A DNA stretch of 64,000 bases from Euzebya rosea (GTDB lineage Bacteria > Actinomycetota > Nitriliruptoria > Euzebyales > Euzebyaceae), in contig NZ_PGDQ01000003.1 of NCBI RefSeq assembly GCF_003073135.1, positions 1 through 64,000 of the forward strand, in the 5' to 3' direction. The notes beneath the pieces were generated by a model. It worked only from the letters and a program-made list of their open reading frames with translations. It did no database searches and had not been told where the DNA came from. The position numbers were made by a program, and so were the translations under genes. This document shows, in pieces, positions 1 through 60,879 of the stretch (within the stretch, counting starts at the first letter, position 1; each line of letters begins with the position of its first letter).

Positions 1-3000
1 CTGGTGGGTGCCCTCGGTGAGTGCGTTGGCCTGGTCGTTGGTGACGTTCATCACCGGCTTGTTCTTCCACGCCGTGAGGCACAGGTAGGTGCCGCCGTTG
101 GGGATCCAGTGGCGGACCGAGTTGTCGTCCACGTAGTGGGTGGTGCCGTCGGGTTGGCGGATGACGTGGCCGCGGGCAGCGGTGACCACGCAGGAGGCCG
201 CAGCCCCTTCGGCAAGCTGGTCCGCCTGTGCCGACGTCAGCTGCACGACGTCCTTTCCTTTCCAGGCGGTCAGGCACAGGTAGGTGCCGCCGTCGGGGAT
301 GTGATGACGGACGTTGGACTCGTCGACGTACCACGAGCGGCCGTCGGGCACCCGGATGACCCGATCACGCATGTCGGGCATGTCCTGCTCGGCAAGGGCG
401 TGACGGAAGATCTCGTAGGGGCCGAGCAGCGTGCCCGACACCTCGTGGGAAAGCTCGACCCGCCCGACGCGACCCGAAACCGACCCGAACGCCTCCAGCG
501 CCACCGTCGCGACGATGGCCGAGGGCGGGGGACTGTCGTAGCGCAGCGTCCACGGCATGCGGATACCCATGGCGACCTCGCCGCTGAGGATCCGACGGCT
601 GTCGAGCGGGCCGACGCCGATCAACAGCGCACCCTCGAGCTTCGCGAAGGGCCGGAACTGTGCCTGGCCGGACAGGTTGATGCCGTCGTGCACGCGGAAG
701 CCCGAGGTGTCGGACTCGTAGGCGACGCCGGTCAGCCCGATGCCGTCCAACCCTGCTCGGAATCCCACGACCCGCTCTGCCGAGGTGTACGTGATCCGCG
801 CCGAGGCGATCTCGGAGTGGCCCGACACGTCGGCGCCAACCACGATCGTCGGGACGAAGATGACGCCGAGGGCGAACGGTCCGAAGCTGATCGCGGTCCC
901 GACCGGCAGCTTCGGCAGGTCGATCCGGCCGTACTCCTGCTCGTAGCTCTGGCCCGAGCGCCCCGCGAACCGGGCGTCCATGCCGATCGACATCCGAACG
1001 CCGGTCTCGATGCTGGACTGGTCGGTGTTGATGTCGAAGAAGGGGTCGAAGGAGACGGCCATCGAGCCGTCGATGCGAATCTGGGCGTCGGTGCAGTTCT
1101 CCGGCTTGGCCGTCGAGCAGCCCAGGTCACCGAAGTCCACGACCCGCTCGGAGGCCCGTGCCGACCGCTGTGCCGGCGTGGAGCGGATGACGCCGTCCTC
1201 CAGCACATCACCGATCTCGGCCGCCTTGACCCCGAGGACGACCGTGTCCGTATTCGTCGTCACGGCGAGGACCTCGACAACCCAGCCGCCGGGCAGGACA
1301 TCTGGATCGGGCTCCAGCGCGACGAGGTTGCCGGCAGTGATGCCGGCGCTCCTGGTCGTGCGCTCCAGGACGACGGTGTCGGCCGTGGCCGACATCACGC
1401 GCGCCTCGCGTGACTCGAGGGCGACGACGTCACCAGCCACCCGTGGCGGCGGAGGGGTCGCCGCGGCAACGGCGGCCTCCAGGGTTGCGTTGCAGACCGA
1501 CGGGGCGTCGCCGACGGCGACGATCTCGGCAGGCAGGAGCCGTCCGAGCTCGTGCTGCACGGCTGGGTCCAGGGTCCCGCAGGTATCGACCAGAAGGATT
1601 GGACCATCGGTGACGCTTCCGGTTGCGACGGCCGTCGCCAGCTCGTCGTGGCCGACCAGGTAGGCAGCGGTGGTGAAGTCCCCACGGGCCGACAGGCCGA
1701 ACCCGAACTCGGAGATGGCCGCTGCAGTCGTCAAGCGGGTCGGGCCCCACAGCCGGGTGACGGGCGCCCAGTCGGCCAGATGCCCAACGACGCCGTCGGA
1801 CACCGCAGCTGAACCACCCAGGACCACGACCCGGCTGGGGGACAGGTCGTCAAGGGCATCGGCCACGACGTCAGGCACCGGGCCGGCCCCCGGGACCAAC
1901 AGCATCGGTCCACCCGCCATGGTTCCACCGACGACCGCGTCCGGTCGCTGCTCACCTGCAGCGACGTACACGAGGTCCGACCCGTCGGGGTGGGATGTCA
2001 GGGCGATGGTGGCTGCGGTGTCGTACCGGGAGGGGCCCCACAGCCGACTGCGGCTGCGGCCGCCGGCCAGGTCGACCAGCAGGGATTCGCAGATCGCGCT
2101 CGTGCCGCCGAGCGCCGTGACCTCTCCAGCGCCGAGGTCCTGCACCAGGTCGACCACGACGCGCGGAGGGGTTCCGCATGGCGGGACGAGCACGACGGGT
2201 CCGTCGGCGAGCGGAGCCGCGGCCAACGCGTCGGCCACCAGGTCCTCGCGAGCCAGGTACAGCCGGTCAGCCCCGTGGGGAAACGCACGGCGTGCCAGCA
2301 TCACCGAGGTGGCGACGTCGTCGCCGCCGTCGATTCGCGTGGCGCCAGCCGGGACGTCGACCGTCGGTGCCGGCCCAACGGGCGGCGGTTCCTCCGTGGG
2401 AGGCGGGGGTGGGTCCCCCGCGGACGGCGGTGGCGGTCCGGCATCCGCGGCCGGCAGGCTGGCGGGCCCGGCGTGTGCATCCAACCGCACCCGACCGGGT
2501 CGGTCCGGATGCTCGTCGTAGTACGCGGCGTCCCCGTCGGCCAGGTAGACGAACGCCGCAACCTCCATCGACGATGGCCCCCCGATGCAGCTCGACGGGA
2601 TCGTCGTGGTCACTGTCGTCCCGTTGATCGTGGCCGGCACCGTGCACACGAGGCTGTCGTTGCCGATCTCGTACAGCCGGGCGGCCAGTTCGCCGTCGAT
2701 CCGGTCGACGTTGACGACCCGAGCCATGCTGCTGGTGACCAACTCCCAGGCATGGGTACCCGTGTCGTGCACGAAGCCGGTACCCGACGCGGCGACCGTC
2801 GTCAGCGACAGGGCGATGCCGTCCGCCCCGAGGTCAGCACACCACCTCGTGATGTCGACGGTCGACGGTCCACCGGTGGACCCGTCGCCGAGGTCCTCAA
2901 CGTCCCCCTCCGCGTCGGTCAGGCATCCGCCGGTCTGATCGAAGGTCGTCGGTTCCGGCTCGGTGGCTGCCCCACCCGAGGAGGCTCGCGTCCACGGTCC

Positions 3001-3087
3001 GGCGTCGGCCAGCACAGCTGGTCCGACCGCCACCACCTGTAGCAGCGCACAGATCAGTACCCCGGCCCACAGCACCCTCGAGCTCAT
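1..3087 (-). CDS. Exported cell-wall-binding repeat 2 protein, partial (C-terminus beyond left edge)
   Basis: An open frame of 1,029 codons runs from ATG at 3087 down to position 1 without a stop, so the gene is cut by the window edge. Residues 1-28 form a signal peptide (MSSRVLWAGVLICALLQ...). A Pro-rich linker lies near 215-240. Three CW_binding_2 (PF04122-like) repeats follow at about 247-345, 346-440 and 445-545, recognised by WGPSRYDTAA and WGPTRLTTAA, VVLGGSAAVSD, and (P)ILLVD motifs. A beta-rich region of unknown function covers about 560-890. At 910-1029+ are two copies of a 65-residue repeat (VIRxPDG...YVD...VRHxIPxGGTYLCLTAWK). A GGGAAG-like ribosome site and a TAGCGT box (minus strand, 3119-3124) precede it. 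Likely anchored to the envelope; ligand unknown. Confidence 0.85.
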   Translation of the reverse strand, partial: MSSRVLWAGVLICALLQVVAVGPAVLADAGPWTRASSGGAATEPEPTTFDQTGGCLTDAEGDVEDLGDGSTGGPSTVDITRWCADLGADGIALSLTTVAASGTGFVHDTGTHAWELVTSSMARVVNVDRIDGELAARLYEIGNDSLVCTVPATINGTTVTTTIPSSCIGGPSSMEVAAFVYLADGDAAYYDEHPDRPGRVRLDAHAGPASLPAADAGPPPPSAGDPPPPPTEEPPPVGPAPTVDVPAGATRIDGGDDVATSVMLARRAFPHGADRLYLAREDLVADALAAAPLADGPVVLVPPCGTPPRVVVDLVQDLGAGEVTALGGTSAICESLLVDLAGGRSRSRLWGPSRYDTAATIALTSHPDGSDLVYVAAGEQRPDAVVGGTMAGGPMLLVPGAGPVPDVVADALDDLSPSRVVVLGGSAAVSDGVVGHLADWAPVTRLWGPTRLTTAAAISEFGFGLSARGDFTTAAYLVGHDELATAVATGSVTDGPILLVDTCGTLDPAVQHELGRLLPAEIVAVGDAPSVCNATLEAAVAAATPPPPRVAGDVVALESREARVMSATADTVVLERTTRSAGITAGNLVALEPDPDVLPGGWVVEVLAVTTNTDTVVLGVKAAEIGDVLEDGVIRSTPAQRSARASERVVDFGDLGCSTAKPENCTDAQIRIDGSMAVSFDPFFDINTDQSSIETGVRMSIGMDARFAGRSGQSYEQEYGRIDLPKLPVGTAISFGPFALGVIFVPTIVVGADVSGHSEIASARITYTSAERVVGFRAGLDGIGLTGVAYESDTSGFRVHDGINLSGQAQFRPFAKLEGALLIGVGPLDSRRILSGEVAMGIRMPWTLRYDSPPPSAIVATVALEAFGSVSGRVGRVELSHEVSGTLLGPYEIFRHALAEQDMPDMRDRVIRVPDGRSWYVDESNVRHHIPDGGTYLCLTAWKGKDVVQLTSAQADQLAEGAAASCVVTAARGHVIRQPDGTTHYVDDNSVRHWIPNGGTYLCLTAWKNKPVMNVTNDQANALTEGTHQ

Positions 3088-3316
3088 CGACTTCCCGTTC
3101 CCGCAGTAGGAAACGAGCACGCTAGCAACTGCGCTGTCGCCCGTCGACGACAACGGCATGGACGTCCCCGAGGACGTCGAGCAAGTGGCGCCCGAGTCAC
3201 CCTGCGCATCGTGAGGGGTGGGAGAGGACATCGTGCTCGCGTGTCGCTGCTCGGTCGCAGTCGACACGCCTCTGAGGTCGCCGAACCCGGTACCTCGGGG
3301 GTAGCCTGCTGCCCCC

Positions 3317-3373
3317 ATGCCCGAGTCCATCCTGCGCAGCGCCCGAGGTCCCGCCGATGCCCGGCATCGCTGA
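3317..3373 (+). other. Possible 18-codon leader ORF overlapping the WYL gene start
   Basis: TAGCCT (3302-3307) lies nine bases before ATG 3317, the same geometry as many starts in this window. The frame encodes MPESILRSARGPADARHR and stops at 3371-3373, overlapping the ATG at 3357 of the next gene in another frame. It could be a leaderless leader peptide, or chance. The rest of the 3088-3356 gap shows nothing else I recognise. Confidence 0.2.
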
Positions 3374-4238
3374 CCTGTCCGCGGACGAGGTCCGCGATGC
3401 CCTGCGGCTGCTCGGTGCCGAGGACGCCGCCATCGCCAGCGGCAACCGGCGTGCGCTGCGCGACCAGCTGGTCGCCCCGGGCCGCGTGACCGACCTGCTG
3501 GACCGTGCCCCCGACGGTGCGGCCGAGGCGTTCCGCCGGATCGCCGTCGACGGTGCCGCTTCGGTCGAGGACCTGCTGTCCCGTGGCTGGGCCGGCGTCG
3601 GTCGGCTGCCCGAACCGCTGGACTGGCTGCAGCGTCGCGCCATGATCATCGTCGGCCGCGAGGGGCTGGTGCACGCCACCGACGCCGCCCGCGAGGGGTT
3701 CGCCACGATGGTCCTCGACCTGCCCGAGGAACCACCGATCGACGACGCCCCGCTGATGGTCGAGGCCGCCCGGACCGTCGTGATCGCACCCAACGAGGGG
3801 GCGCTCGACCGGGCGACCGCCGTGCCCGGCGCCGCCCTCCGCGCCGTCTCGGCCACCGTCGCCGTCAGCGACCGCTCGCCCGCCGCCGTCCACGCGGCGC
3901 TGGAGTCCGCCGGCGCCACGGTCTCCGCCGCCACCGCCGACGCCCCGCAGGCCATGACCCTCGGCCTGCCCGGCACCGAGCAGGAAGCCGTCGGCCCTCG
4001 CGCCATCCGCCGGCTGCTCGAGCAGTCCCTGGAGGAACAGCGGCAGGTCCGGCTGGAGTACTTCGCGTCCTCACGCGGCGGACAGGCCACCGAACGGGTC
4101 GTCGACCCGTGGACCTTCGCCGACGACCTCCTCAAGGGCTACTGCCACCTGCGCGAGGGCGAGCGGACCTTCGCCGTCGACCGGATCGGCCGGGCGAGGC
4201 TGCTCAGCACCCACCGCACCCACGAGCCGGCCGAGTAG
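3357..4238 (+). CDS. WYL-domain protein (probable transcriptional regulator)
   Basis: 293 residues. The C-terminal part, about 218-285, has the WYL-type beta barrel signature: RQVRLEYFASSRG, then RVVDPWTF, then LKGYCHLREGERTFAVDRI. The N-terminal 200 residues are helical and Ala-rich, similar in style to the regions that precede WYL-like barrels in helicase-associated proteins, but no clear helix-turn-helix is visible. WYL domains bind ligands or nucleic acid in bacterial regulators. ATG 3357 was chosen because no in-frame start exists closer to the promoter; a Shine-Dalgarno-like GAGG lies upstream. The ABC transporter genes start 34 bp downstream, so it may control or be co-transcribed with them. 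The actual target is unknown. Confidence 0.65.
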   Translation: MPGIADLSADEVRDALRLLGAEDAAIASGNRRALRDQLVAPGRVTDLLDRAPDGAAEAFRRIAVDGAASVEDLLSRGWAGVGRLPEPLDWLQRRAMIIVGREGLVHATDAAREGFATMVLDLPEEPPIDDAPLMVEAARTVVIAPNEGALDRATAVPGAALRAVSATVAVSDRSPAAVHAALESAGATVSAATADAPQAMTLGLPGTEQEAVGPRAIRRLLEQSLEEQRQVRLEYFASSRGGQATERVVDPWTFADDLLKGYCHLREGERTFAVDRIGRARLLSTHRTHEPAE

Positions 4239-4272
4239 CGCCACCGCCGCCGTCCACAGGGGAGGGGAATCC

Positions 4273-5205
4273 ATGACCGACCGGGTGATCATCACCAGCG
4301 GCCTCACCAAGGACTACGGCGACGGCCACGGCGTCTTCGACCTCGACCTGCACGTCGACGCCGGCGAGGTCTTCGGCTACCTCGGGCCGAACGGCTCGGG
4401 CAAGTCCACCACCATCCGCATGCTGCTGGACCTGGTCCGCCCCACCCGGGGCACGGCCACCGTCCTCGGCCACGACCCGCGCCACGGCGATCCAGCCATC
4501 CGCCGGCGGATCGCCTACGTGCCGGGCGAGCTGAACCTCTGGTCGGGCTGGACGGCCCGCGAGATCGTTGGCTACCTGGCCGCCATGCGCGGCGGCGTCG
4601 ACCCCTCCCGCATCGCCGACGTCGCCGACCGGCTGGACCTGGACCTCGACCGTGAGGTCGGCAACCTCTCCAAGGGCAACAAGCAGAAGGTCGGCCTCGT
4701 CGCCGCCTTCGCCCCCCGCGTCGAGCTGCTGGTCCTCGACGAACCGACCAGCGGGCTGGATCCGCTGCTGCAGGTCGAGTTCGTGCGCCTCGTCCGCGAG
4801 GCCGCTGCCGATGGCACCTCCGTCCTGCTGTCCTCCCACGTGCTCAGCGAGGTCGAGCACGTCGCCGACCGGGTCGGCATCATCCGTCGCGGCCGGCTGG
4901 TCGACGTGCTCGGGGTGGCCGAGCTGAAGGCGCAGGCGAGCCGGACCCTGGAGGTCACGTTCGCCCACGACCCACCGCCGGGGCTGGCCGACCTCCCCGG
5001 GGTGTCCGTCCTCGTCACCGATGGCCGCGTCGGCCGGTACGAGGTGGCCGGCGGCGCCGGACCCGACGGACGGCCGTTCGTGGACACCTTCGTCAAGGCG
5101 CTGGCGGCCCACACCGTCACGGGGCTTCGTGGTGAGGACGCCGACCTCGAGGCCATCTTCCTGCGCTACTACGCCGACGAGCCCACCGGTGGGGTCGAGC
5201 GGTGA
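4273..5205 (+). CDS. ABC transporter ATP-binding protein
   Basis: 310 residues, the usual length for the ATPase of ABC-2 type exporters. Walker A GPNGSGKST is at 38-46, the signature LSKGNKQK at 132-139 (K in place of the usual Q/G after LS), Walker B LLVLDE at 152-157 and the switch histidine at 189. The long C-terminal part after about 225 is typical of drug/lipid exporter ATPases. The start is fixed by a strong GGGGAGGGGAA site upstream. Its stop overlaps the GTG of the permease gene by four bases (GTGA), so the two are translationally coupled. Substrate cannot be read from sequence. Confidence 0.92.
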   Translation: MTDRVIITSGLTKDYGDGHGVFDLDLHVDAGEVFGYLGPNGSGKSTTIRMLLDLVRPTRGTATVLGHDPRHGDPAIRRRIAYVPGELNLWSGWTAREIVGYLAAMRGGVDPSRIADVADRLDLDLDREVGNLSKGNKQKVGLVAAFAPRVELLVLDEPTSGLDPLLQVEFVRLVREAAADGTSVLLSSHVLSEVEHVADRVGIIRRGRLVDVLGVAELKAQASRTLEVTFAHDPPPGLADLPGVSVLVTDGRVGRYEVAGGAGPDGRPFVDTFVKALAAHTVTGLRGEDADLEAIFLRYYADEPTGGVER

Positions 5206-5996
5206 CGCCCGTCCTCGGCCGCACTCTCGCCCGCGAACGCCGGCCGATCCTCGGCTGGGTCGTCGGCGTCGCGCTCATCACCCTGATCACCGTCGCGTCG
5301 TGGCCCGGCATCGCGGAGTCCAGCGCCGACTTCGAGGAGATCCTCGCCAACCTGCCGGCCGCCCTGACGGCGTTCTTCGGCGAGGGGATCGCCAGCTTCT
5401 CCGCCGCCGCCATCGTCGGCTCGCGGCTGTACGGCACGATCGGCATGGCCCTGTTCATCGGCTACGCCGTCTCGCGCGGCGCCCGCGGCATCGCGGGGGA
5501 GGAGGGCGACGGCACCCTCGAGCTGCTGGTCACCCTGCCGGTCAGCCGCACCGCCGTCGCCGTCGACAAGGTCGTCGCCATGCTCCTGGGACTGTCGGGT
5601 CTGGTGGTGCTCGAGCTGGTGATGCTGCTGGTCGCCATGCCGCTGGTCGACCTGGACTTCGCCGTCGGCAACGTCCTGGCGGCCTCGGTCGGCGTGTACC
5701 TGCTCAGCGCCCTCTTCGGAGGGCTGGCCTTCGCAGTCGGCGCCGCGACGGGCAGTCGGGGCGCCGCGGTCGGCATCGCGGGAGGGCTGGCCGGCGGGCT
5801 GTTCCTCCTGACCGGGTTCGCCTCCCTCGTCGACTGGCTCGAGCCGCTGTCGGCCATCAGCCCCTTCTCCGCCTACGACGGAACCGTCGTGCTGTCGGAG
5901 GGGCTGGGGGCCGGCACGCCGCTCGTGTTCGCCGCCCTCGTGGTGCTGCTGGTCGCGGTCGGCGTGGCCGCCTTCGACCGGCGGGACCTGTCCTGA
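5202..5996 (+). CDS. ABC-2 type transporter permease
   Basis: 264 residues with about six hydrophobic segments, the first at roughly 10-32, others near 72-95, 120-150, 155-180, 185-210 and 238-258. It begins on a GTG overlapping the stop of the ATPase gene. The internal segment with RGARGIAGEEGDGTLELLVTLPVSR is the cytoplasmic loop that ABC-2 permeases use to touch the ATPase coupling groove (the 'EeregTle.ll.tpvsR' pattern). Together with the upstream ATPase it would form an exporter of a hydrophobic compound, antibiotic or lipid. Substrate unknown. Confidence 0.88.
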   Translation: MTPVLGRTLARERRPILGWVVGVALITLITVASWPGIAESSADFEEILANLPAALTAFFGEGIASFSAAAIVGSRLYGTIGMALFIGYAVSRGARGIAGEEGDGTLELLVTLPVSRTAVAVDKVVAMLLGLSGLVVLELVMLLVAMPLVDLDFAVGNVLAASVGVYLLSALFGGLAFAVGAATGSRGAAVGIAGGLAGGLFLLTGFASLVDWLEPLSAISPFSAYDGTVVLSEGLGAGTPLVFAALVVLLVAVGVAAFDRRDLS

Positions 5997-6039
5997 CGGG
6001 GCCCCCACGGATGTCGCACCTCGATGCGATGATCGCGCC

Positions 6040-6861
6040 GTGACCGACGACCACGCTGCCGCACACCCCGACACCGACCACCCCGACGACCGCCCCTCTC
6101 GGGCACTCCTGGCCCGCCGGGTGGTCGGCTTCGACGACGCGTTGCACAAGCGGATGGCCTCCTCGACCGAGCGGCTGCCGTTCGGCTCGGTCCGCCTGAC
6201 CCCGGACCTGCCCCTGGTCTACTCCCTCAGCGGCATGCACATCGACCGTCCCGTCGCGCTGCCCGAGCTTCGCGCCGCGGTCGACCGCTGGATGGGCGAC
6301 CTGCCCAACCAGAGCCTGTGGACGACCCGCGCGGAGGTGGCCTGGTCCCTGGGCGGGGTCATGGCCGAGGACGGCTGGACGCTCAGCCGGGTCGTGTTCA
6401 TGGTCCACGATCGGACCACCGCCCCGAACGTCTCCCCCGTTGGGTTCCGCACCGTCGACGCGGCGGAGTACGCCGTCTTCACCCGCCCGTTCGTGCTGGA
6501 GGAGGAGTGGGGCAGCCCTCCGGTCGCCGAGGAGATGGTCCGTCGCGACGCACGCCTGGAGGCCCGCATGGACGCGAGGTTCGTGCTGGCCCCCGACGCC
6601 GACGCGGGCTGTCACGTCTACCGGCACGGCACCATCGCCCAGATCGAGGCCGTCGGGGTGTTGACGGAGTCACGCGGCCGCGGGCTCGGCGAGGGCCTGA
6701 TGGCCGCAGCCATGCGCGAGTGCGCGGACGCCGAGACGCTGTTCCTGATCGCCGACGCCGACGGCTGGCCGCAGCACTGGTACGGGAGGCTGGGGTTCCT
6801 GAAGGTCGCTGCCGGGTGGGAATGGAACCGAAAGCGCGAGTCAGCCGACCAGCACGCCTGA
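6040..6861 (+). CDS. GNAT-family N-acetyltransferase
   Basis: 273 residues, GTG start. The C-terminal half carries the acetyl-CoA motif A, GVLTESRGRGLGEGLM at about 207-222 (RxxG-x-G/A form), and the final GNAT strand-helix HWYGRLGFLKV near 247. The N-terminal half (1-130) is a diverged GNAT-like or substrate-binding region with Asp/His-rich start. No strong -10 or ribosome site is obvious. The acceptor substrate is unknown. It lies just after the ABC permease with a 43-bp gap and in the same direction. Confidence 0.75.
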   Translation: MTDDHAAAHPDTDHPDDRPSRALLARRVVGFDDALHKRMASSTERLPFGSVRLTPDLPLVYSLSGMHIDRPVALPELRAAVDRWMGDLPNQSLWTTRAEVAWSLGGVMAEDGWTLSRVVFMVHDRTTAPNVSPVGFRTVDAAEYAVFTRPFVLEEEWGSPPVAEEMVRRDARLEARMDARFVLAPDADAGCHVYRHGTIAQIEAVGVLTESRGRGLGEGLMAAAMRECADAETLFLIADADGWPQHWYGRLGFLKVAAGWEWNRKRESADQHA

Positions 6862-58273: not shown

Positions 58274-58792
58274 TCAGGACGCCCAGAAGACCTCGACGCG
58301 CAGCAGGGCGTCACCATCGGGGAACGCCCGGGTCGACAACGCCAGCGTCGTGGCGTCGTCCAGCCTCGTGCTGGGTGTCGTGGCCGTGGCCCCGCCGGGG
58401 GAGGTGTCCTGTCCGGCACGGTTGGCCACGGCCCAGGCACGGATCGCCTCGATGTCGAGGTCCAGCGGTTCGGCCAGGGTGGTGGCCCGCGCGACGACCT
58501 CGTCGACGGACTCGTGCGGGAAGGTGACGGTCAGGGCGGTCAGCCGGTCGCCCTCGCGGGTGGCGTTGGCCCGGTCGATCCCGGTCAGCACGACCCCCCC
58601 GGGCAGCCTGACCTCGCCGGGTTCGGCCTCCATCGCCGTCAGGTCGCCGTCCCAGCCGACGTCGGCTGGCGCGTGGCCGTCGGTCAGGTCCCAGGTGTCC
58701 AGCGCGGTTCCTCCTCCCGACGTGGTGGTGCAGGCCACACCGAGCAGCAGCATCGACAGGGCGGCCACGACGGCCCGTTGCTTCGTCCTCAC
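58274..58792 (-). CDS. Putative lipoprotein, partner of the EF-hand protein
   Basis: 172 residues from GTG 58792, overlapping the stop of the upstream gene by four bases (GTGA). The signal has a lipobox-like LLLGVAC with the Cys near 21, suggesting a lipid-anchored envelope protein. The mature part is beta-rich (VRLPGGVVLTGIDRANATREGDRLTALTVTFPHESVDEV). No known family recognised. Tight coupling to the preceding WXG-like gene suggests that the two act together. Confidence 0.6.
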   Translation of the reverse strand: MRTKQRAVVAALSMLLLGVACTTTSGGGTALDTWDLTDGHAPADVGWDGDLTAMEAEPGEVRLPGGVVLTGIDRANATREGDRLTALTVTFPHESVDEVVARATTLAEPLDLDIEAIRAWAVANRAGQDTSPGGATATTPSTRLDDATTLALSTRAFPDGDALLRVEVFWAS

Positions 58793-60879
58793 TCGGCGGG
58801 ATCGTAGCGGAGGGGCCCGACGTCGGGCACGAGCCGCTGGGGGGCTGCCTGCTCCGGGATGGGCACGGCGACCAGCGGCCCGGCGGTGCCGGCGTGCACG
58901 TGGTCGATCCACGCGGGGAGCATGTCGGTCTCGATCCATTCCCAGCGGTGCTCGAAGATCGACACGTTGTTCAGCGGCAGGTCGACGCTGGCGCCGACTC
59001 GGTCCGGGGTGTCGATCGACACCGCGCCGAACGGCAGGTCGAACGGTCCGACCCGGTCGGGGTAGATCGTGACGCGGTCGGGGGTGTCGACGTACAGCCC
59101 GACCTCGACGGGCACGACCTCGCGGAACGGCCGCCCGCCGGGCACGGGGGAGGAGGCCAGCACCGACATGCCCATCGTCGTCGCCCAGGTGATCGGGCTG
59201 TGGTCCCTGATGGCGTCGTAGTCGTCGCCGATGATGGTGGACTGCTCGTGGCGCAGCAGGCTGGCGTTGCCGGCCTCGACCCGGTCGGGCACGCCGCTGT
59301 CGATGTCGTGCCACGCGTCGAGCTGCAGGGGCAGGATCATCCCGTCGTCGGCCAGCTGCTGGATGACCTCCATGCCCCCGACCCGATGGGCGACGTGCTG
59401 CCACGCGAGGTCGTCGAAGATCTGCTTCTGCATGTCCAGGAACGTCGTCTCGACGTACCTCAGCTCCCGGGCCATGGCGTCGGCGCCGGCCTCGGCCAGC
59501 TCGCCCGCCAGCTGCGATCCCAACGGACCCAGGTGTCGGGTGAGGATCTCCACGGCCTCCTCGACGGGGATCTCGTCCGACTCCAGGCCGACCCGCAGCA
59601 CGTGGAGGTCCTGGAACGCCGCGTAGAAGGTCCCGCCGGCCAGCGTGGCCATGCCGGACCACAGGTAGCGGTCGGGGTCGGCGGCGAACAGGTCCTGGTA
59701 GAGGGTCCACGCGTCCACGGCGATGCCATCGAGCGGCGCCAGCCCGAGCGCCGGGTCCCACGCATCGGCGTCGAGGCCGGCGAGCAGGTGGGTCAGCCAC
59801 CGCCACGAGGCGGGGTCGTTCGCGCTCGTGACCAGCGCCAGCAACGGCTCGACCAGGGTGGACCGCAACGCGGCCTGCAGCGGGGTCAGTGGTCCGACAA
59901 CGCCCGTCCCGATCACCGGGTTCCCCACCGCGAGCGCGTCGGCGAGCGCCCCGTCCAGTCCCTGGAGGCGCAACGCCCCGACCAAGGCCGCGCTGGCGGC
60001 AGGATCGGCCGCGGCGTCCATCAGCAACCGGCCGAGCAACGTCATCGCCGTAACCAGGTCGAGCTGGGCCATCCCGTTGTCGCCCAGCACGAAGGCCAGC
60101 GCCGCAGCCAGCTCGTCGGGGCCGACCGTGCCGTCACCGTCGGCGTCCAGCACGATCCCGGCCGACCCGTCCAGCAGTCCGCCGCCCGTCGCTGCCCTGC
60201 CGAACGACGGGCGCCCGGTCGGGTCCACGAGGCGGGCGTCGACGCGGATCGCCGTTCCCCGTGCGGCGTCGGCGTGCTCGCTGGCCAGGCCCCGCGCCCG
60301 CGCGCGCAGACGGGCCAGGGCACCCTCGGCCTCGGCGATCGACCGGTCGAGCCGCCCCACCACCAGGTCGGTGCGGTCGTACTGGCGCCATGCAGCAGAC
60401 CGTGCCTCGTCGGTGGCCTCGGGATCCCGCTGCACCCACCGCAGCCCCTCCAGCGCCGCCGTGCGGGCTCGCTGTGCCGCCGGCCGCGCCGCCTCGGCCT
60501 CGCGTTGCCTGTGGTCGGCGGCCTCCGCCAGGTCGAGCAGGGCCCCGGCTCGGGCCTGGAGGATGGTCAGGGCGTCGGCCCACGCCGACAGCGCCGACCC
60601 GGCCGATGCCGCCCTGCCGCTGCCGTGGAGGACGACCGCAGGCAGCTCGCCGAACACGGCGAGGAACCCGTCGGCGGAGGGCCCCGACCACTCGCTGGTG
60701 CCGGCCTCCAGCGCCACGTCGGCGGTGGCCGCCGCGACGTCGTCGGTGGCGGTTGCGGCACCGCCGAGCGCCTCGGCGACGTGCTGGATCGTGGTGGGGC
60801 TGCCGGGGGCGGGGTCTCCGTGCAGCACCGTCCAGTCGCGCCCGCGCGCGACCGCGACGTCAGCGAGCAGCAGTGCCAT
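58789..60879 (-). CDS. Large WXG-like protein with an EF-hand, unknown function
   Basis: 696 residues. No Sec signal. The N-terminal ~150 residues are helical with W-S-G near 63 (TSEWSGPSADGFLAVF), the pattern of T7SS/ESX-secreted N-termini. A canonical EF-hand calcium loop lies at 245-256 (DADGDGTVGPDE). The middle is Ala/Leu-rich helix; the C-terminal ~200 residues (DDYDAIRDHSPITWATTMGM, DTPDRVTIYPDRVGPFDLPFG, VSIDTPDRV) match no family I know. It could be a T7SS substrate or polymorphic-toxin-like protein; no catalytic motif is visible. Coupled by overlap to the lipoprotein gene. Confidence 0.6.
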   Translation of the reverse strand: MALLLADVAVARGRDWTVLHGDPAPGSPTTIQHVAEALGGAATATDDVAAATADVALEAGTSEWSGPSADGFLAVFGELPAVVLHGSGRAASAGSALSAWADALTILQARAGALLDLAEAADHRQREAEAARPAAQRARTAALEGLRWVQRDPEATDEARSAAWRQYDRTDLVVGRLDRSIAEAEGALARLRARARGLASEHADAARGTAIRVDARLVDPTGRPSFGRAATGGGLLDGSAGIVLDADGDGTVGPDELAAALAFVLGDNGMAQLDLVTAMTLLGRLLMDAAADPAASAALVGALRLQGLDGALADALAVGNPVIGTGVVGPLTPLQAALRSTLVEPLLALVTSANDPASWRWLTHLLAGLDADAWDPALGLAPLDGIAVDAWTLYQDLFAADPDRYLWSGMATLAGGTFYAAFQDLHVLRVGLESDEIPVEEAVEILTRHLGPLGSQLAGELAEAGADAMARELRYVETTFLDMQKQIFDDLAWQHVAHRVGGMEVIQQLADDGMILPLQLDAWHDIDSGVPDRVEAGNASLLRHEQSTIIGDDYDAIRDHSPITWATTMGMSVLASSPVPGGRPFREVVPVEVGLYVDTPDRVTIYPDRVGPFDLPFGAVSIDTPDRVGASVDLPLNNVSIFEHRWEWIETDMLPAWIDHVHAGTAGPLVAVPIPEQAAPQRLVPDVGPLRYDPAE

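Follow-up and report, generated by a model that had tools for sequence, protein, structure and literature searches.

Two overlapping genes on the reverse strand of the window, by which we mean the whole 64,000-nucleotide stretch of Euzebya rosea DNA analysed here, most likely encode a T7SS-exported protein and, to shield the producing cell from it, a lipoprotein anchored in the membrane; the same predicted pair recurs in many soil actinobacteria. The T7-type module of the large protein and its pairing with a lipoprotein are well supported; from these we infer export, toxicity, binding and neutralisation by the lipoprotein, and a target in the envelope. We consider it probable that the large protein is an envelope-acting antibacterial effector exported by a T7SS and that the lipoprotein is its cognate immunity protein. 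The features of the pair are collected in Table 1.

Table 1. Positions of the two genes and their features in the window
Feature	Position	Strand	Basis
Large gene, 696 aa, putative T7SS-exported effector	58789..60879	-	ORF and translation; ortholog in G003
N-terminal T7SS targeting module, residues 1-210	60250..60879	-	PF21725 similarity; common to other proteins of the genome
W-S-G turn, residues 64-66	60682..60690	-	Sequence comparison in the genus
EF-hand-like loop DADGDGTVGPDE, residues 245-256, linker	60112..60147	-	Sequence; EF-hand_1 E 0.1
C-terminal effector domain, residues 332-696, DUF2515-related	58792..59886	-	Alignments A1/A2; AlphaFold model
GTGA stop/start overlap, coupling inferred	58789..58792	-	Sequence; same in G003
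Small gene, 172-aa lipoprotein, putative immunity protein	58274..58792	-	Translation; remote family membership; AlphaFold model
Lipoprotein signal peptide, residues 1-20, and lipid-anchor Cys21	58730..58792	-	VRTKQRAVVAALSMLLLGVAC; hydropathy

The gene pair, its export module and the T7SS of the genome

The small gene starts at a GTG codon inside GTGA, where it overlaps the stop codon of the large gene. This overlap had been described in the sequence-only reading of the window and is seen again in the congener G003, in which the junction sequence GAGTGAGGACG is identical; translation of the lipoprotein is thus presumably coupled to that of the 696-residue protein. The large protein is 85% identical to its G003 ortholog. 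From codon substitutions between the two genomes, its gene has a dN/dS of 0.19, the lipoprotein gene one of 0.45 and the neighbouring genes values of 0.03-0.20; both genes are thus real. Among the genes compared, constraint is weakest on the small one.

The pair is flanked by housekeeping genes (named by sequence reading), with infB on one side and DUF503, rbfA, a DHH phosphoesterase gene, truB and ribF on the other. Because the infB-DUF503 interval is occupied by other genes in the congener G002, and no effector adjoins DUF503 in the congener G001, the pair is accessory at this site. Effector, lipoprotein and a T7SS-size ATPase are all present in the window's own genome and in G003, two of the four genus genomes compared; G001 and G002 have neither effector nor lipoprotein and only FtsK-like matches of about 50 bits, with no T7SS-size ATPase, so that this co-occurrence is one of two genomes against two, a small sample. 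MFS and ArsR-type genes adjoin the lipoprotein gene and were left out of the unit, as the MFS gene lies on the opposite strand and neither type was seen to recur beside related loci.

The N-terminal part of the large protein resembles the T7SS_signal family (PF21725; residues 26-180, E 2.8e-5, 24.6 bits against a gathering cut-off of 27). In a six-frame translation search the same model scored 27.2 bits, with a cut-off of 27 bits, and the G003 ortholog scored 27.9 bits. The module is marked by the motif DW..L.GDPAPG (DW..LHGDPAPG in the 696-residue protein) and by an invariant W-x-G, and at least three further proteins encoded in this genome carry it ahead of unrelated C-termini. It had been proposed that a WSG turn separates N-terminal helices as in T7SS/ESX substrates; consistent with this, the W and G of the motif do not vary among five T7-type N-termini compared in the genus, and the T7SS_signal similarity points the same way. 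The module would be a helical WXG-type hairpin. Hydropathy averaged over 19 residues peaks at 1.36 at residue 285 and shows no N-terminal hydrophobic segment; no Sec signal or membrane anchor is therefore evident, in agreement with the earlier statement that the protein lacks a signal peptide.

A perfect EF-hand loop had also been singled out at residues 245-256. The loop is present, and EF-hand_1 matches it, as a single loop with its exit helix, at E 0.1; the ortholog in G003 retains it, a paralog has a degenerate version, and a PROSITE-like EF-hand pattern is matched in 1.1% of shuffles of the protein. As a linker feature that lies outside the shared effector domain and is seen only in this genus, it was rejected as a key functional feature and does not define the effector family.

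The T7SS locus of the genome lies on contig C1. Its ATPase is a 1508-residue FtsK/SpoIIIE protein with an FHA domain that matches the EssC model at E 2.3e-135 and the EccCa model at E 3.2e-105, with scores under the curated cut-offs of both, and the locus may represent a separate T7SS subtype. Two clear WXG100 proteins (E 1.6e-13 and 3e-13), another T7SS_signal protein, and kinase, VWA and PASTA genes are found with it. EccC/EsxA-type genes, whose presence in the genome had been left as a check on the T7SS assignment, are thus represented by an FtsK/EssC-like ATPase and WXG100 proteins; a search for EccD gave no signal in any control genome and was therefore uninformative.

Several further observations were made in this genome. 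The T7SS locus (L018 1-19901) combines the FHA-bearing EssC-like ATPase with ParA-like proteins, Ser/Thr kinases and VWA genes, and flagellar genes adjoin it. Within it, beside a PASTA/SPOR protein, one ORF (L018 6975-8474) has a T7-type N-terminus and a C-terminus ending in HLDHVHVS, reminiscent of a cell-wall carboxypeptidase, with no Pfam match. A second cassette of similar layout (L020 5335-8881, which is contig C11 33334-36880) consists of a 92-aa Esx-like gene, a gene for a 728-aa T7SS_signal-like protein whose C-terminus is unrelated, and, starting from an ATGA overlap, a gene for a 358-aa lipoprotein; in G003 the large gene of this cassette is split in two ORFs (L023 7554-8648 and 8656-9741).

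The C-terminal domain and its lipoprotein partner in related loci

The C-terminus had been called unassignable, which no longer holds: the 696-residue protein matches DUF2515 (PF10720; Bacillus YppC) at E 0.012, and its C-terminal domain alone does so at E 0.0012 (18.7 bits, below the gathering cut-off of 24.3). The same family is weakly matched by 67 of the 69 aligned members, the best reaching 4.8e-8 and scores rising to 32.3 bits. Residues 332-696 are, on this sequence similarity, a distant relative of DUF2515 and not a filed member. The domain alignment contains 19 invariant columns, among them M152, K154, I156, F157, D159, H164, N207, E214, Q215, R314 and W315 (alignment A2 domain numbering). 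An AlphaFold model of the domain (pLDDT 86.7, pTM 0.85) is mostly helical. Foldseek returned no match at E 0.001 or better in the PDB or among viral models, and the best VIA-align hit, a BAR domain at Z 5.9, is not meaningful for a helical bundle; a PDB sequence search gave weak, chance-level matches only. No enzyme fold was identified by Foldseek or VIA-align, and a known housekeeping fold, which had been named beforehand as a result that would count against the pair, was not matched in searches of the PDB and viral models with the C-terminal domain. These searches do not show the fold to be new.

A whole-protein query found no match in the genome contigs searched. With the C-terminal alignment as query, relatives were retrieved, and 80 loci were fetched from 229 candidates; no phage match was found. 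The domain sits behind several different T7-type N-termini, and a WXG100-like or T7SS_signal-like N-terminus precedes it in 54 of the 80 loci. These classes were assigned by sequence reading, with Pfam for representatives, and several N-termini score under the Pfam cut-off or give no match. All 16 genomes with T7-type forms that were tested contain an EccC/EssC-size match (at least 300 bits). The genome of Kribbella, whose effector copy has no WXG module, has no match of that size; this copy (L089 5812-7467) lies in an ORF that itself weakly matches the lipoprotein profile (E 5e-3). On the tree, the domains from the window and from G003 stand apart on a long, divergent branch, and the distribution of the pair is patchy within both the genus and the phylum.

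The N-terminus of the window lipoprotein (VRTKQRAVVAALSMLLLGVAC) has an n-region, an h-region and a lipobox cysteine, and its hydropathy peaks at 1.86 at residue 7. The lipobox reads GVAC in the window, with an unusual G at -3, and TAAC in G003; relatives have LAGC, LTAC or LGGC. The lipoprotein family, for which there is no Pfam or NCBIfam model, is matched by profile directly downstream of the effector in 51 of the 54 T7-type loci. Two others (L080 and L092) have a divergent lipoprotein directly downstream, and at L086 the contig ends after the effector, with a lipoprotein fragment at another contig edge of the same genome. Where a lipobox start was identified, 41 of 49 related loci have the 4-base overlap seen in the window. 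The window lipoprotein itself appears to be a remote member of this family: hhalign gives E 2.9e-5, or 0.0038 once the Acidobacteriota sequence L077 is left out, and among the window ORFs it is the top hit of a family HMM built with no window sequence, at E 0.018 (E 0.015 for its ortholog).

Lipoprotein genes also occur as arrays and alone. Two or three tandem copies, with 26-84% identity, follow the effector at L046, L069, L075, L084 and L085; L125, L126 and L128 have a family gene with no effector nearby; and at L127 such a gene lies beside a 100-residue effector remnant. This pattern resembles that of immunity genes. With the 80 related loci, the tandem arrays and the orphan lipoprotein genes, the likeness to an effector/immunity pair that had been proposed from the window has, as far as sequence comparison goes, been strengthened. 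At L075, in Gordonia araii (2376-6214), the effector ORF continues in frame into a lipoprotein-domain copy that is followed by two tandem lipoprotein-family genes, a fusion that appears to have arisen by recombination within the array.

The AlphaFold model of the window lipoprotein (pLDDT 85.3) is alpha/beta. Its best Foldseek match has E 0.012, and VIA Z scores of 4-6 were obtained to TM1622, TiME, PsbP, LpqN and Tsi3, the last of which is an immunity protein; the model is suggestive of a Mog1/PsbP-like fold, without being conclusive.

Sec-exported relatives and explanations for the pair

Forms of the domain with a Sec signal are found in Mycobacteriales (L031, L032 and L093-L116). Many lie directly 5' of a secretory lipase gene by sequence reading, with PF03583 confirmed at L031 and L032. 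These forms are one clade (SH-aLRT 99) whose neighbour, in a tree made by a quick method and with an uncertain root, is a T7SS_signal-type protein, so that a single switch of export route is likely. A profile search found a lipoprotein-family gene with none of 29 Sec-exported relatives. Since a whole clade is without the partner, the domain is not always paired with a lipoprotein, which is the weakest point of the effector/immunity reading; toxicity could have been lost there, or self-protection could be achieved in another way.

In the mechanism that we favour, the 696-residue protein would be directed by its WXG-type hairpin to the EssC/EccC-like ATPase of the T7SS locus elsewhere in the genome, and the hairpin would be joined to the all-helical DUF2515-related domain by a linker that contains a calcium-binding-type loop. 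The domain would act extracytoplasmically, at the envelope of actinobacteria nearby; the location of the lipoprotein and the fact that Sec-exported forms exist suggest a target of this kind. The lipoprotein would be produced by coupled translation, sit on the outer face of the producer's membrane by its lipid anchor, and bind the effector domain so as to prevent intoxication of self or siblings. Traits of polymorphic toxins are present: within one genome the N-terminal module bears exchangeable C-termini, the C-terminal domain is joined to different N-terminal modules, and the candidate immunity gene lies immediately downstream and is elsewhere arrayed or orphaned.

Other functions would also join an exported protein to a lipoprotein. 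Purifying selection on both proteins would suit a cell-wall or membrane enzyme that serves its producer, with the lipoprotein as activator, anchor or cofactor, and the partnerless Sec clade, often next to a lipase gene, suggests non-toxic use in some lineages; a housekeeping role of this kind is nevertheless rather unlikely, given the patchy distribution in genus and phylum, the shuffling of the domain across T7-type, Sec and OmpA/eCIS-associated contexts, and the arrays and orphans of lipoprotein genes. Those divergent arrays, and the orphan beside an effector remnant, would equally be unexpected of receptor genes, and they count against the idea that the exported protein captures a nutrient or metal for which the lipoprotein is the membrane receptor. 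There is a precedent for such scavenging in ExsI/ExiR of Corynebacterium glutamicum, a documented T7SS substrate with a membrane receptor that functions in iron uptake (PMC12607788); the gene pairing fits an exported protein with an obligatory surface partner, and the invariant H, D, E and M residues could bind metal. However, the pair has no transporter gene, and ExsI is a small WXG100 protein with no comparable C-terminal domain, so that we regard scavenging, although it deserves to be taken seriously as an alternative, as unlikely.

The Mog1/PsbP/LpqN-like fold is common to T6SS Eag chaperones. The weak matches of the lipoprotein model to this fold, together with the overlap of the genes, raise the possibility that the lipoprotein is a secretion partner or chaperone of the effector instead of an immunity protein. 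This is highly improbable: a lipid-anchored protein exported by Sec would be across the membrane from a T7SS substrate still awaiting export and could not chaperone it there, other effector loci instead encode small helical partner-like proteins upstream (92 aa at L020, 118 aa at L092), and orphan and tandem lipoprotein copies would not be expected.

Extending the effector/immunity reading beyond the window, we tentatively propose, at somewhat less than even confidence, that the DUF2515-like domain represents a new class of envelope toxin, with a fold and target unseen before. Many actinobacteria would deliver this toxin through their T7SS, and immunity lipoproteins of a new family would neutralise it. 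In one lineage (Gordonia, Rhodococcus, Nocardia) the immunity partner would have been lost, Sec would have taken over export, and a secreted lipase would have become the partner of the domain.

Comparison with known systems

Characterised T7SS toxins come largely from Bacillota. A T7SS toxin with an extracytoplasmic immunity protein is a known kind of system, and lipoproteins or other extracytoplasmic immunity proteins are known for T7SS effectors that act outside the cytoplasm (PMC10730906, PMC12419801). Among the closest known systems, TslA/TilA of Staphylococcus aureus, a T7SS phospholipase and its immunity lipoprotein (PMC10730906), combines, as is predicted for the window pair, a substrate acting outside the cytoplasm with an adjacent immunity lipoprotein in divergent multi-copy arrays; however, in TslA, which has a lipase domain, the order of domains is reversed, and TilA belongs to DUF576, whereas the window pair has its T7 module at the N-terminus, a DUF2515-like effector domain and a lipoprotein with no family model. 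Arrays or orphans like those of the lipoprotein genes described here have been reported for TilA, EsaG and TelC-toxin immunity genes (PMC10730906). TelC/TipC of Streptococcus intermedius, built around an LXG lipid II phosphatase (PMC6193138, PMC12419801), shares with the predicted architecture of the window pair the N-terminal helical T7SS module, the C-terminal envelope toxin and the extracytoplasmic immunity protein; the window pair differs in being actinobacterial and in having a C-terminal domain with no significant Foldseek match to solved structures.

The N-termini of the window protein and its relatives match the T7SS_signal (PF21725) and WXG100 (PF06013) modules at or near the cut-off, yet neither the C-terminal domain nor the partner lipoprotein is described for these families in the literature found. 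DUF2515 is not mentioned in the open-licence literature found, nor is there a description in it of the effector domain, the lipoprotein family or their phylum-wide pairing, of which an earlier account may exist. Actinomycete toxins linked to T7SS have already been described, one being an alarmone synthetase that Amycolatopsis exports (PMC12691689). What the present pair adds is a putative link between a DUF2515-like domain family of unknown function and T7SS export across Actinomycetota. It comes with a conserved candidate immunity family, so that effector and lipoprotein can be examined directly in a two-gene toxicity and protection assay, and the T7SS-exported and Sec-exported forms of one domain offer a natural comparison.

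A further context of the domain was observed in Halomonas (L087 5371-10860), where it follows an OmpA-like domain and adjoins a gene whose product combines eCIS core and non-specific endonuclease domains, an arrangement that suggests contractile injection.
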